Assembly (NCBI GenBank): GCA_900104855.1
Contig: FNSS01000001.1
Location: 6,138,001 to 6,202,000, forward strand
Origin: Rhizobiales bacterium GAS188
GTDB lineage: Bacteria > Pseudomonadota > Alphaproteobacteria > Rhizobiales > Beijerinckiaceae
Direction: 5' to 3'
Length of the DNA stretch: 64,000 bases
Position numbers and translations under genes: made by a program. This document shows, one piece after another, positions 40,115 through 45,922 of the stretch (positions within the stretch are counted from its first letter, which is position 1; each line of letters begins with the position of its first letter). The notes beneath the pieces were generated by a model, which worked only from the letters and a program-made list of their open reading frames with translations, did not search any database and was not told the DNA's origin.

Positions 40115-42688
40115 ATGACGAAGCGACCTCAAAAGCTCTCGACCGACACGCCCGCATCGCCCGCTTCCGGCCGCGCCGCCAAGCGAGCGAATGCTCCCGA
40201 TCCGCTCAAGGCCTATCGCAGCAAGCGCGATTTTGCGCGGACTTCCGAACCCGTGGCGAAGCTCGGAAGCGCCGAAGGTGGGCAATTCGTGGTCCAGAAG
40301 CACGATGCGCGTCGGCTCCATTACGATTTGCGGCTCGAACTCGACGGCGTGCTCGTGAGCTTCGCGGTGACTCGGGGGCCAAGCCTCAATCCGGAGGATA
40401 AGCGTCTCGCGGTGCGCACCGAAGATCACCCGATGAAATATCTCGATTTCGAGGGCGTGATCCCGAAAGGGGAGTATGGCGGCGGCACCATGATCGTCTG
40501 GGATCGGGGCACTTGGACGCCGAATTTCGACCCGCATTTCGGCCTCAACAAGGGCCATCTCGAATTCGAGCTGCACGGCAAGCGCCTCGGGGGCCGATGG
40601 CATCTGGTGCGAATGAAGCCGCGCCCGGGCGAGACGAAGGAGCAATGGCTGCTGCTGAAGGCCGAGGACGAATTCGCGAAGGGCGCCGTAGGACCCGATA
40701 TGCTCGAGGAGGAAACGAGGTCCATCCTGTCGGGGCTGACCAATGACGAGGTGGCCAAGGGGGAGCTGGCGCGTCCGGACCACAAGGCGAGGGCGGGGAT
40801 CGCTCGCCGCAGGAAGCAAGCTCTGCCCGAGGCGAGCCGCCTGAAAGGCGCCCATAAGGGGCTGCTGCCGGTTTTCGTCGAGCCGAGCCTAGCGGCGCCG
40901 GCGGCGCATCCGCCCGTTTCGGCGGATTTCGTGCATGAGATCAAGCTCGACGGCTACCGCATGCTGGCGCGGATCGACGGGCGCGAGGTGAAGCTTCTCA
41001 CCCGGACAGGCCTGGACTGGACCCACCGCTTCAAATCCATTGCCTCGGCGGTGAAGGGCTTGCGCATCCCCTCGGCGATGCTCGACGGCGAGATCGTGGT
41101 CGAGGACGCAGCCGGCATTGCGAGCTTCAACGAGCTGGTCACCGACCTCAAATCCGGTCGCCAGGACCGGTTTCGCTACTTCGTCTTCGATCTCATCTAT
41201 TTCGACGGCTCGGATGTGCGCAAGGCCTCGCTCGTCGACCGCAAGGCCTTGCTGAAGGAGGTTCTGGCCGAGCTGCCCGCCGGAGGAGCGATTGCCTATG
41301 GCGACCATCTCGAAGGCCACGGCCCGACCGTATTCGAGCACGCATCTCGCCTGGGCCTCGAGGGCATCGTCTCGAAGCGGCGTGACGCCCCCTATTTTTC
41401 GGGACGCGGCAACCTCTGGATCAAATCGAAATGCGTCGAGCGGCAGGAATTCGTGGTTGTCGGTTATGTGCCCTCGACCGCAGGCAAAGGCGCGGTGGGG
41501 TCGCTCATCCTCGGCTATTATGAAGGCGGCGCGCTCTTCCATGCCGGCCGGGTCGGCAGCGGCTTTTCGACGGACGAGGCCAAGGCCCTCTTCGCCGCTC
41601 TCGAGCCGACGACGATCGACAAGCCGGAATTCGGGCGAAAGCCGATCGCCGGCGCGGAGAAAGGCGTGCGCTGGGTCACGCCGAAGCTCGTCGTCGAGGT
41701 CGAGTATCGGGGCTGGTCGAAGGACGGCGTCTTGCGGCACTCCACCTATCGGGGCATCCGCGAGGACCGGGAGCCGAAGGAAATCGCGCGCGAAGCTCCC
41801 GCGGCAGGCCGCAAGTCGGGCAAGTCGCATGATTGGCGGCTCACCCATCCGGATCGCCTGCTATGGCCGGAACAGGGGATCACCAAGCAGGGCCTCGCCG
41901 ATTTCTACGCCGAGATCGCCGACTGGATCCTTCCTCACCTCGTCAGCCGCCCCTTGAGCCTTTTGCGCTGCCCGGGGGGGATCGCCGCCCAGTGCTTCTT
42001 CGCCAAGCACTCCTGGAGCGGCTCGGGCGATGCGATCAGGCTCGTCCCGAACGGTGGCGGCGAGCCGTTTCTGGCGATCGAGGACCTCGACGGCCTGATC
42101 GAGCTGGTGCAGGCGAACGTCCTCGAGATCCATCCCTGGGGCGCGACGACCGCCGATCTCGAACGGCCTGATCGCCTCATCTTCGACCTCGATCCGGCCG
42201 ACGACGTCCCCTGGGAGGCGGTGGTCGGAAGCGCCCGAGAGGTTCGGGAACGCCTGACGGGCCTTGGCCTGCAGAGCTATGTGAAGACCACGGGAGGCAA
42301 GGGGCTGCATGTCGTGGTGCCGATGATTCCCGCCCTGGAATGGGAACCCGCAAAGGCCTTCAGCAAGAAGCTGGTGGACGCCATGGCGGCCGACAGCCCC
42401 GGCCGCTACCTGACCAATATGGCGAAGAGCCAACGCAAGGGGCGCATCTTTCTCGACTATCTCAGAAACGGCCGCGGTGCGACCGCGGTCGCCGCCTTCT
42501 CGACACGTGCGAGGCCGGGCGCCGCGATCTCGACGCCGCTGTCCTGGGACGAGCTCTCGGCCGTCAAGGCGGATCATTATCGCCTCGACAATATCGTGAG
42601 ACGCCTCGATGCCCTCAAGCGAGACCCGTGGGAGGGCTTCTTCAGCCTGCGGCAGCGATTGCCGGCCGCACGCAAAGCCAAGACATGA
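40115..42688 (+). CDS. ligD: ATP-dependent DNA ligase LigD
   Basis: 857-residue non-homologous end-joining enzyme with three domains. The N-terminal 3'-phosphoesterase (about residues 30-200) has VVQKHDARRLHYDLRLEL and GVIPKGEYGGGTM. The ATP-dependent ligase (about 245-545) has the nucleotidyl lysine K277 in HEIKLDGYRM. The C-terminal polymerase/primase (about 570-850) has LSLLRCPGG and the metal-site LIFDLDPAD. All domains look intact. It repairs double-strand breaks with Ku, whose gene is 146 bp downstream on the same strand. Confidence 0.95.
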   Translation: MTKRPQKLSTDTPASPASGRAAKRANAPDPLKAYRSKRDFARTSEPVAKLGSAEGGQFVVQKHDARRLHYDLRLELDGVLVSFAVTRGPSLNPEDKRLAVRTEDHPMKYLDFEGVIPKGEYGGGTMIVWDRGTWTPNFDPHFGLNKGHLEFELHGKRLGGRWHLVRMKPRPGETKEQWLLLKAEDEFAKGAVGPDMLEEETRSILSGLTNDEVAKGELARPDHKARAGIARRRKQALPEASRLKGAHKGLLPVFVEPSLAAPAAHPPVSADFVHEIKLDGYRMLARIDGREVKLLTRTGLDWTHRFKSIASAVKGLRIPSAMLDGEIVVEDAAGIASFNELVTDLKSGRQDRFRYFVFDLIYFDGSDVRKASLVDRKALLKEVLAELPAGGAIAYGDHLEGHGPTVFEHASRLGLEGIVSKRRDAPYFSGRGNLWIKSKCVERQEFVVVGYVPSTAGKGAVGSLILGYYEGGALFHAGRVGSGFSTDEAKALFAALEPTTIDKPEFGRKPIAGAEKGVRWVTPKLVVEVEYRGWSKDGVLRHSTYRGIREDREPKEIAREAPAAGRKSGKSHDWRLTHPDRLLWPEQGITKQGLADFYAEIADWILPHLVSRPLSLLRCPGGIAAQCFFAKHSWSGSGDAIRLVPNGGGEPFLAIEDLDGLIELVQANVLEIHPWGATTADLERPDRLIFDLDPADDVPWEAVVGSAREVRERLTGLGLQSYVKTTGGKGLHVVVPMIPALEWEPAKAFSKKLVDAMAADSPGRYLTNMAKSQRKGRIFLDYLRNGRGATAVAAFSTRARPGAAISTPLSWDELSAVKADHYRLDNIVRRLDALKRDPWEGFFSLRQRLPAARKAKT

Positions 42689-42834: not shown

Positions 42835-43836
42835 ATGGCGCCCAGGAGTAACTGGAAGGGATTCCTCAAACTATCCCTCGTTTCCTGTTCCATTGCGCTC
42901 TATCCGGCGGCCAGTTCGTCGGCTCGCATTACCTTCAACACACTCAACCGCAAGACCGGCAACCGGCTGAAGCGCCAGTTTGTCGATGCCGAGACCGGCG
43001 AAGAGGTGGATACGGAGGACCAGGTCAAGGGATTCCGCGTCGATCGGGACAATTACCTGATGATCGAGGAAACGGATCTGGACGAGATCCGCATCGAGAG
43101 CACGCATACGATCGAAATCGAAAAGTTCGTTCCGAAAGCGGAGATCGATCCGCGTTACATGGATGCGCCCTACTATATCGCCCCGACCGAGAAGGTGGGC
43201 GAGGAAGCCTTCGCCGTCATCCGCGACGCGATGCGCGACGAGAAAGTGGTCGGCCTCGGCCGTGCCGTGATTTCGAGGCGCGAGCGCATCATGATGATCG
43301 AGCCCTGGGACAAGGGGCTTCTCGGCACCGTGCTTCGCTACGCCTATGAGGTTCGAGGCGAGGAGGCCTATTTCAGCGAATTGCCGAGCCTCAAGCTCGA
43401 CGCCGACCTGAACGACATGGCCAAGGTCATCATCAAGCGCAAATTCGGGCATTTCGACCCCACCGAGTTCACCGATCGCTATGAGGACGCCATCGCCGAA
43501 ATGGTGCGCGGCAAGCAGGCCGGCTCCAAGCCGCGGCTGGCGAAGAGCGCCCCCTCGGGGGGCAATGTGATCAATCTCATGGATGCGCTGCGACGCAGCA
43601 TGGAGGCTTCCGGCGCAGCACAGCCGAAGCGATCGGCTGAAGCTCCGGCCCAATCGCCTTCAGCGCAGGCGCCTTCCGCGGCATCGAAGAAACGTGCGAA
43701 CGCCAAGCAGCTTCAGCGCGACCAGCCCCAGCTCAAGCTTCCCATCCCCGGAGGCAAGTCGAAGCCGGCCGGGAAGGCCAAGGTCGAAGCGCCGAAGGAG
43801 GAGATCAGGCCGTCTTCGAGGAAGAAGGCGTCGTGA
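42835..43836 (+). CDS. ku: Non-homologous end-joining protein Ku
   Basis: 333-residue bacterial Ku. The core (about residues 1-260) has LSLVSCSIALYPAASS and ETGEEVDTEDQVKGF, GLGRAVISRRERIMM and ends in GGNVINLMDALRRSME. It dimerises on DNA ends and recruits LigD. The C-terminal tail of about 70 residues is basic and Ala/Ser/Pro-rich, with the motif QPQLKLPIPGGK at residues 297-308. The same motif recurs in the next protein. The stop overlaps the next gene's GTG. Confidence 0.95.
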   Translation: MAPRSNWKGFLKLSLVSCSIALYPAASSSARITFNTLNRKTGNRLKRQFVDAETGEEVDTEDQVKGFRVDRDNYLMIEETDLDEIRIESTHTIEIEKFVPKAEIDPRYMDAPYYIAPTEKVGEEAFAVIRDAMRDEKVVGLGRAVISRRERIMMIEPWDKGLLGTVLRYAYEVRGEEAYFSELPSLKLDADLNDMAKVIIKRKFGHFDPTEFTDRYEDAIAEMVRGKQAGSKPRLAKSAPSGGNVINLMDALRRSMEASGAAQPKRSAEAPAQSPSAQAPSAASKKRANAKQLQRDQPQLKLPIPGGKSKPAGKAKVEAPKEEIRPSSRKKAS

Positions 43837-44516
43837 GCGCGAACCCGACCGATCGCGCCTGTGTGCTGTGGATGGAGCTCGACGGCGAAATCTATTCGCC
43901 GGCGATGAGCCTCGGCCGGGCTACGCAGGAGACCATCGAGCGGGACATCTGGAACGGCGCTCATGCGGGTGTCTGTCACGCGGTCTACAGCTATGGCAGC
44001 TTTGCGAATGGCGGCAGCTATTGCCGCGAGATCACGCGAGAGGTCGCCGAAAGGCTAGGGCGGATGAGCCTGGCGAGCAGCGGCAAGCCGGCGGCCTCCG
44101 CGCTCGCTTTCCTCGAGATGTTCGGGGTCGGGCATTGCGATGCGGGCGCGGCGGCCCCGGCCCGTTCCGACGATCGCCCGGTTTTCGCGCAGATGCCGGC
44201 AGGCTCGGCTGCGAAGCGACCCCCGGCGCGAAAGAGACGCGCCAAGGTGCTATCTCCGGAGGAGCTGCGCGCCCAGCCTCAGTTCAAGCTGCCCATAGCG
44301 GGAGGCAAGCAAGATGTTGCGCCGTCATCGACCCGGATCGAAACCGAGGAAGAGGCAGACGTCGAGGTCCTGTCATTGAAGGACACGCGACCGCTGGCCG
44401 AGATCGAGGCCGGTTGGACCCGGTTCGACCAGAAGCTCCGCGACATGGGCATCAAGCTTCCGAAGGACGAGAAAACCGCCGTCCCGGAACCGCTTAGGGC
44501 GGCCAAGGCCTCTTAA
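43833..44516 (+). CDS. Unknown protein coupled to Ku, with shared C-terminal motif
   Basis: 227-residue protein starting at a GTG inside the Ku stop (GTGA), so it is translationally coupled to ku. An N-terminal domain (about 1-95) starts MSANPTDRACVLWMELDGE and has a cysteine-containing core (YSYGSFANGGSYCREIT). A basic linker (KRPPARKRRAK) leads to QPQFKLPIAGGK at residues 148-159, nearly the same as the Ku tail motif; DNA identity there is 32 of 39 bases. A C-terminal helical part follows. I do not recognise a family. The context and motif suggest a partner in end joining, which is inference. Confidence 0.8.
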   Translation: MSANPTDRACVLWMELDGEIYSPAMSLGRATQETIERDIWNGAHAGVCHAVYSYGSFANGGSYCREITREVAERLGRMSLASSGKPAASALAFLEMFGVGHCDAGAAAPARSDDRPVFAQMPAGSAAKRPPARKRRAKVLSPEELRAQPQFKLPIAGGKQDVAPSSTRIETEEEADVEVLSLKDTRPLAEIEAGWTRFDQKLRDMGIKLPKDEKTAVPEPLRAAKAS

Positions 44517-44550: not shown

Positions 44551-45147
44551 ATGGGAAAAGGCGAAGTGACCCGTGCGGCAATCATCAGCGAAGCGTTGTC
44601 GCAGGCCGTGGTCGGCGGGCTGGAAGGGCTGACGCTCGGCGTTCTCGCCTCCAGCCTCAAGCTCTCGAAAAGCGGCTTGTTCGCCCACTTCAAGTCGAAG
44701 GAGGCCTTGCAGCTCGCGGTCCTGGAAACGGCCATCGACCGCTTCACCAGGAAGGTCGTCGTTCCGGCCCTGTCGAAGGCGGAGGGTGTGGCGCGCCTCG
44801 AGATGCTATTCGGCAATTACCTTGACTGGATCCGGCGCGGCGACGGCTCGGGTGGGTGTCTCTTCGTGACCGTCGCGCAGGAAGTCGATGATCGGCCGGG
44901 GCCGGTTCGCGATCTGTTGGTCGAGTCCCAAACCAAATGGCGAGGCGTTCTCGGCCAATGTGTCGCCGATACCGTCAAAGCAAAGACATTTCGGGCCGAC
45001 GCCGACCCTAATCAGATCGTGTTCGAGATGGTCGGGATCGCCCTGTCATTCCAGCATTCGCTCAAGCTGTTCGGCGACAAGCGGGCCCGCCTTCTGGCCG
45101 AGCAGGCTTTCGCCCGCCTCATCGACGACAATCGCGTGCTCCAATGA
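44551..45147 (+). CDS. TetR family transcriptional regulator
   Basis: 198-residue regulator. The N-terminal helix-turn-helix reads GGLEGLTLGVLASSLKLSKSG then LFAHFKSKEALQLAVLE, typical TetR. The C-terminal domain (about 80-190) is like TetR_C of the YcdC/TfdR class, with a GCLFVTVAQEVDD segment. It lies 35 bp after the Ku-linked gene but has its own operator-bearing promoter. Matching palindromes lie before the next GST gene and before the divergent GST operon, which makes these the likely regulon. Confidence 0.9.
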   Translation: MGKGEVTRAAIISEALSQAVVGGLEGLTLGVLASSLKLSKSGLFAHFKSKEALQLAVLETAIDRFTRKVVVPALSKAEGVARLEMLFGNYLDWIRRGDGSGGCLFVTVAQEVDDRPGPVRDLLVESQTKWRGVLGQCVADTVKAKTFRADADPNQIVFEMVGIALSFQHSLKLFGDKRARLLAEQAFARLIDDNRVLQ

Positions 45148-45190
45148 CGCCGCAACTCGATGAATCCGGCATTCGTTATTTGCAGAAATA

Positions 45191-45208
45191 AGCACGAACG
45201 TTCGTGTG
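45191..45208. promoter_or_regulatory. TetR operator site B, upstream of first GST gene
   Basis: AGCACGAACGTTCGTGTG contains the perfect 14-bp palindrome CACGAACGTTCGTG (45193-45206). A -10-like GATAAA follows at once, so a bound repressor would block the promoter of the GST gene that begins at 45242. Confidence 0.72.
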
Positions 45209-45241
45209 ATAAATTGAGCAACCCCACCCTTCGGAGCGGCT

Positions 45242-45922
45242 ATGATCGACTATTACACCGCGAAATCGCTCGGCGGTAACACCCGCAAGATCACCATCAT
45301 GCTGGCCGAGACCGGGCTCGAGCATGTGGTCAACTATGTCGACCTCGACAGGAACGAGCAGTACGAACCCTGGTACAGGGCCATCAATCCGAATTGCAAG
45401 ATTCCAGCGATCGTCGATCACGATGTGCCGGGCGGTCTCGCCTTCGGCGAGTCGGGCGCGATCCTGATCTACCTTGCGGAAAAGACCGGTCGTTTTCTCC
45501 CGGTGAGCGGACCGGACCGCGCCAGGGTCATGCAATGGGTCTTCTGGCAGGTCGGCAGCGTTGGCCCGATGGTCGGTCAATTGTCCTATTTCGCCGGTCG
45601 CGCGCCGGAAAAGATCGACTTCGCCATCAATCGCTACCGCGATGAGTGCGGCCGCTTGCTGGACGTGCTGGAGGGACAGCTCTCGGGCACCGAATATATC
45701 GCCGGCGATTATTCGATCGCCGACATGGCGAATTATTCCTGGATCAAGCCGCTGTATGAAAGCTTCATGCGGGCCAAGAGGCCAAGCCGGGTCACCGATC
45801 TCACCCACATTCCCCGGTGGATCGCCACCATGTCGACGCGTCCCGCCGTAACCATCGCCATGACGAAATTCGAGGGAACGGCGCTGCGCGTCGGCAAGGA
45901 TGTCGAGGCCCCGCTGGCCTGA
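45242..45922 (+). CDS. Glutathione S-transferase family protein
   Basis: 226-residue GST. The N-terminal thioredoxin-like domain has a YYTAKSLGGNTRKI region, NPNCKIPAIVDHD with the cis-proline, and FGESGAILIYLAEKTGRFLP with the glutathione-binding ES motif. The C-terminal helical domain has AGDYSIADMANYSW, the N-capping box. It resembles the YfcG/Nu class. CGGAG lies before the ATG. It should be induced when the adjacent TetR releases operator B. Confidence 0.9.
   Translation: MIDYYTAKSLGGNTRKITIMLAETGLEHVVNYVDLDRNEQYEPWYRAINPNCKIPAIVDHDVPGGLAFGESGAILIYLAEKTGRFLPVSGPDRARVMQWVFWQVGSVGPMVGQLSYFAGRAPEKIDFAINRYRDECGRLLDVLEGQLSGTEYIAGDYSIADMANYSWIKPLYESFMRAKRPSRVTDLTHIPRWIATMSTRPAVTIAMTKFEGTALRVGKDVEAPLA

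Follow-up and report, generated by a model that had tools for sequence, protein, structure and literature searches.

The window analysed here, a 64,000-nucleotide stretch of the genome of Rhizobiales bacterium GAS188, carries on its forward strand a ligD gene, a ku gene, and a third gene, referred to below as the neighbour, that begins inside the ku stop codon (Table 1). The overlap was called correctly in the original prediction, which placed an open reading frame at 43833 that shares the bases GTGA with ku. The core of the Ku protein is a bacterial Ku beta-barrel, whose match to TIGR02772 scores 263 bits against a cut-off of 150. The end of ku also contains a putative ribosome-binding sequence for the neighbour, and a GGAAGG stretch precedes the neighbour start in two of the three other genomes of the genus. 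The ligD gene lies 146 bp upstream of ku and adjoins it only in the window genome among the four genus genomes. Downstream of the pair (44551-45922) are a gene for a TetR-family regulator (44551-45147) and a glutathione-S-transferase-like gene (45242-45922), neither of which was seen beside the ku pair where flanking open reading frames were read, in two other members of the genus. Besides the ligD of the window, the same genome has further matches to the LigD ligase region (C1:7283303, C1:2114213, C2:86771, C1:1593484, C1:7551739, and C1:7553779), and some of these frames are short or interrupted.

Table 1. Genes and sequence features around ku; positions are those of the window.
Feature	Position	Strand	Evidence or remark
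ligD (3'-phosphoesterase, ligase, and polymerase domains)	40115..42688	+	PF13298, PF01068, PF04679, PF21686
ku	42835..43836	+	333 aa; TIGR02772 Ku_bact E=2.5e-78, PF02735 E=2.8e-44
Core of the Ku minimal C-terminus, NVINLMDALRRS	43564..43599	+	kept in most Hyphomicrobiales Ku tails
Ku tail motif QPQLKLPIPGGK, residues 297-308	43723..43758	+	hexapeptide QLKLPI at 43729-43746
Shine-Dalgarno-like GAGGAAGAAGG for the neighbour, within the end of ku	43818..43828	+	sequence
Overlap of neighbour start and ku stop, GTGA	43833..43836	+	GTGA or ATGA in 4/4 genus genomes
Neighbour gene, 227-aa orphan protein	43833..44516	+	GTG start inside the ku stop
N-terminal half of the neighbour, residues 1-100	43833..44132	+	46/100 columns invariant; conserved CH and NGGSYCREIT
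Neighbour motif QPQFKLPIAGGK, residues 148-159	44274..44309	+	hexapeptide QFKLPI at 44280-44297
Predicted C-terminal helix of the neighbour, residues 188-204	44394..44444	+	low-confidence model; WxRFDxKLRxMG conserved

Is the neighbour a genuine gene? Homologues are present in all four available genomes of the genus and share 47-51% identity with the window copy across the aligned region. Nonsynonymous divergence (dN 0.23-0.46) is well below synonymous divergence (dS 0.9-2.0, a range near saturation), and codon position 3 is the most variable. The neighbour is therefore very probably translated and constrained by purifying selection. The original prediction had proposed a search of Hyphomicrobiales for the gene, and this search gave a divided answer: the neighbour is present and linked to ku in all four genus genomes, and nothing convincing was found elsewhere in the order (397 genomes searched, 396 of them others). 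Among 199 genomes of the family, no convincing homologue appeared outside the genus, the matches being no better than E=1e-3, and viral contigs and plasmids likewise gave no convincing homologue. A search of 385 genomes of the class (384 others) with the N-terminal domain returned three weak matches at chance level (E 7e-4 to 8e-3). A seeded scan of 84,980 species, which detects close relatives only, returned only three Hyphomicrobiales MAG contigs, consistent with the three known genus members. Comparisons with Pfam, NCBIfam, PHROGs, and PDB gave no convincing match and no curated domain. As far as these searches reach, the neighbour is a genus-level orphan, and it follows that it is not a general component of non-homologous end joining (NHEJ). 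Its N-terminal half is a probable small alpha/beta domain, modeled as strand-strand-helix-strand-strand-helix-helix at low confidence (pLDDT 47-48 for the full protein and the N-domain). Residues 147-187 have no regular structure in the low-confidence model.

The conserved unit at this locus is the ku-neighbour pair, without ligD. The four-base overlap joins the neighbour to ku in all four genus genomes, and the outer neighbourhood and the position of ligD vary. In the three other genus genomes, the best LigD is encoded on a different contig from ku. In the two of them in which flanking frames were read, the pair has an alpha/beta-hydrolase-like gene on one side and a convergent alpha-amylase-like gene on the other, as named from reading the translations. 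Linkage to ku had been named beforehand as a check on the functional connection, and it held: the neighbour always occurs with ku (4/4), and no convincing ku-free occurrence was found in the genomes searched.

The two genes of the pair both encode the block QPQ[LF]KLPI[AP]GG[KR]. It had been claimed that a motif in the Ku tail recurs almost unchanged in the neighbour, and a comparison of QPQLKLPIPGGK with QPQFKLPIAGGK bears this out. The highest-scoring ungapped alignment of the two proteins has the block at its centre and reaches a score of 77, whereas 200 shuffles of the neighbour yield no more than 49; a Gumbel fit gives P about 7e-6 for that score of 77. Beyond the block, the match consists of Ala/Lys/Pro low complexity. 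The pattern Q[LF]x[LF]P[LIVM]xGG has three matches in the 9.09-Mb genome, namely Ku, the neighbour, and one spurious-looking frame. Across the four genus genomes, Q[FL]KLP[LI] has nine matches, eight of which are in Ku or the neighbour and the ninth in a 66-residue frame. The motif is essentially absent from the remainder of each genus genome.

The original prediction further noted that the two motifs match at 32 of 39 DNA positions, and it left open whether a segment had been copied or both proteins had come to bind the same partner. The count is right. When codons for the two peptides are drawn from local usage, 29.6 +/- 1.8 identities are expected (P>=32 = 0.14), so the DNA identity follows from the peptides and codon use and provides no separate evidence for copying. 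Copying of the DNA segment was accordingly rejected as an explanation supported by the 32/39 match. What stood was that Ku and the neighbour both have the motif fixed across the four genomes, as would be expected if it were a shared binding motif.

Evidence for constraint on the block comes from the divergence around it. The motif is fixed in Ku and in the neighbour, in all eight proteins of the four genomes, and the surrounding sequence diverges; conservation of the motif in orthologues, which had been proposed as a check, was thus seen on both sides of the pair. In the four Ku tails, a 16-column block around RDQPQxKLPIxGGK has 14 invariant columns versus 14 of 65 in the remaining extended tail. 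In the neighbour, a 15-column block around LRAQPQFKLPIxGG[KR] has 13 invariant columns versus 25 of 131 elsewhere in the C-terminal half (Fisher P=3e-7), a comparison based on four sequences, which are all that exist. The block ranks joint first in conservation among the stretches of the neighbour, and synonymous sites within it vary between genomes. Conservation extends beyond the hexapeptide to QP before it and [AP]GG[KR] after it, about 12 residues in total.

How widely do Ku proteins carry such a block? Among 126 Ku sequences surveyed from Hyphomicrobiales, the tails are mostly simple, fast-evolving Ala/Lys/Pro/Arg sequence, and a conserved tail island is found in two lineages only. One is the genus studied here (four sequences), and the other is a clade of family f36 (41 sequences, genera g78 and g148) whose island reads Q[RK]EML[LM]PIxGK. 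The window Ku resembles bacterial Ku (TIGR02772) in having the core domain, a minimal C-terminus of the LigD-recruiting type, and a basic extended tail; it differs from most surveyed Hyphomicrobiales Ku proteins in that its extended tail bears the conserved island QPQ[LF]KLPIxGGK. The f36 island has a similar place in the tail and shares the outer Q, the PI, and the following Gly, but E replaces Q at the first position of the hexapeptide. A tree of 105 Ku cores places each island lineage in one clade, and the two clades are not sisters, which implies two gains, or one gain with losses. The f36 motif pattern was matched in all 31 genomes searched of that lineage, and nearly all matches were the Ku motif itself. 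Because this pattern search of the 31 genomes found no convincing second motif-bearing protein, the motif-bearing neighbour is so far peculiar to the genus studied here.

Which partner would the shared block bind? The original prediction had put forward LigD as a protein to which both tails might bind, and this now appears less likely. Studied Ku proteins recruit LigD via the minimal C-terminus (PMC9638933, PMC13201618). In the window Ku, the minimal C-terminus NVINLMDALRRS is present and intact upstream of the motif and aligns with other Ku tails, which suggests, by likeness to the studied proteins, that it is the LigD-recruiting segment. The corresponding pattern N-V-[IV]-N-L-M-[DE]-A-L is absent from all four neighbour proteins. 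LigD is a less likely shared partner because this site is separate from the motif, because the neighbour is without it, and because ligD lies on another contig in the other genomes. The separate known site and the unlinked ligD led to the rejection of LigD as the obvious common partner.

The sliding clamp DnaN, which the original prediction did not name, is a more specific candidate than LigD. The block contains the hexapeptide Q-[L/F]-x-L-P-[L/I], as QLKLPI in Ku and QFKLPI in the neighbour, at the same positions in all four genomes. The E. coli form of the clamp motif is given as QL[SP]LPL, and Caulobacter HdaA requires QFKLPL for DnaN contact (PMC3836487). The neighbour's QFKLPI is identical to the HdaA motif at five of six positions and has I for L at the last. 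This resemblance makes a DnaN-binding hexapeptide of the QL[SP]LPL or QFKLPL kind the most likely identity of the core Q[LF]KLPI, and the chances appear about even that Ku and the neighbour both dock on the clamp. The segment that holds QFKLPI in the neighbour may be flexible, like that of the HdaA/Hda motif, to judge from the low-confidence model, and for Ku proteins the C-termini have been reported to be flexible or in part helical (PMC9638933). The two proteins probably carry the same short linear docking motif, placed in a region of each that may be flexible. Unlike HdaA/Hda, whose motif, QLSLPL in E. coli, is N-terminal, the pair has it in an internal linker (neighbour) or a C-terminal tail (Ku), with no AAA+ domain and with flanks conserved beyond the hexapeptide; the clamp contact here is predicted. 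In non-replicating Caulobacter cells, the clamp is loaded on damaged DNA (PMC8102061), which would be a setting where end joining matters.

Several observations speak against the clamp. The conserved block is longer than the canonical clamp motif, and canonical motifs do not need conserved flanks beyond the hexapeptide. In addition, the clamp-motif candidate in the HdaA of this genus is QLLLDL, which is a related pattern but not an identical one. Among HdaA-like proteins, the N-terminal candidates for a clamp motif vary from lineage to lineage, with QLLLDL in this genus, QLAFSLP or QLAFALP in f36, and QLTFDLPL in f1 g9. When QFK[LF]P[LIMV] was surveyed across 192 Alphaproteobacteria, nearly all matches fell in short or wrong frames; those in frame were the neighbour itself and one GatB-like enzyme, with no known clamp binder among them. 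The exact hexapeptide is therefore not a frequent clamp motif in that sample. The f36 pattern search, which turned up no convincing second protein with the related motif in 31 genomes, and the small set of neighbour sequences, four in all, also count against the clamp. The sequence of the GatB-like enzyme, QFKFPIVGEG, resembles the motif probably by chance and is a caution for pattern searches. Caulobacter MutS uses DLPLF and MutL uses QTLLLP (PMC8034640). The residue at position 1 is flexible in Alphaproteobacteria, as DLPLF of MutS shows, so EMLLPI of the f36 Ku could fit too.

How could a clamp contact serve end joining? The Ku core would bind DNA ends, the minimal C-terminus would recruit LigD, and the island in the extended tail would contact DnaN. 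Through the motif in its linker, the neighbour would occupy a clamp cleft of the same kind, which would place its N-terminal domain at the repair site; its C-terminal helix would also be presented, both structures being low-confidence predictions. Because the sliding clamp is a homodimer and has two clefts, the Ku tail and the neighbour could sit on a single clamp; the neighbour might instead compete with Ku for the clamp cleft. What the sequences show is the gene, its linkage to ku, its restriction to one genus, and a motif that is conserved and rare; clamp binding, joint occupancy of the clamp, and a role of the neighbour in end joining are what we infer. The arrangement in full, in which Ku and a dedicated accessory sit on DnaN, one per cleft, with the clamp bridging them at the broken end and a related Ku-only contact in f36, is put forward tentatively, and its being right in every part is doubtful.

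Another possibility, which we regard as somewhat unlikely, is that the block binds a different common end-joining partner (LigD, the Ku core, or another repair protein) via the longer QPQ[LF]KLPIxGG[KR]. If that partner were the Ku core, the neighbour would mimic the Ku tail. The roughly 12 conserved residues, exceeding a clamp hexapeptide, would be accounted for in this way, as would the f36 lineage, which keeps Q--M-[LM]PI-GK with the same outer Q and following Gly and whose Q[RK]EMLLPI is without the canonical clamp Q in register. However, Ku is known to recruit LigD through a different segment, the minimal C-terminus (PMC9638933, PMC13201618), the pairing of ku with the neighbour persists where ligD is elsewhere, and no specific candidate can be named. 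It is a good deal less probable that the neighbour opposes or regulates Ku, acting as a decoy of its tail that would compete for the cleft and limit end joining, for example during replication. The same motif in both proteins would suit a decoy, the four-base overlap suggests translational coupling and hence proportionate amounts, and the neighbour has no catalytic family match; nevertheless, a decoy would need a shared partner just as docking of both proteins on DnaN does. Least probable is that the block is a functionless piece of tail, copied or alike by chance, in a neighbour unrelated to repair: Ku tails are low-complexity and fast-evolving and the pairing occurs in one genus only, but in both proteins the columns of the motif show far higher conservation than the tail around them even though synonymous sites vary, the DNA identity is no higher than codon use predicts, and the block is retained in all four genomes.

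If both proteins do dock on DnaN, end joining in this genus would have a physical link to the sliding clamp of replication. The usual view of bacterial NHEJ is of a two-component system, Ku and LigD, and to our knowledge little is known about its coordination with replication. A clamp-type motif conserved both in Ku and in a partner whose gene overlaps ku would offer a direct, mutable handle on that coordination. No literature linking bacterial Ku to the sliding clamp was found in a search that left subscription papers and preprints largely outside. A precedent for a further participant is Sir2, reported as a proposed participant in mycobacterial NHEJ (PMC3102665). Like Sir2 as described there, the neighbour is a candidate third protein in bacterial NHEJ beyond Ku and LigD; unlike Sir2, it has neither a Sir2 domain nor that of another family. 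The motif and the gene coupling suggest that the neighbour may be an unrecognised third part of bacterial break repair. The f36 Ku island, Q[RK]EML[LM]PIxGK, is worth a separate study.
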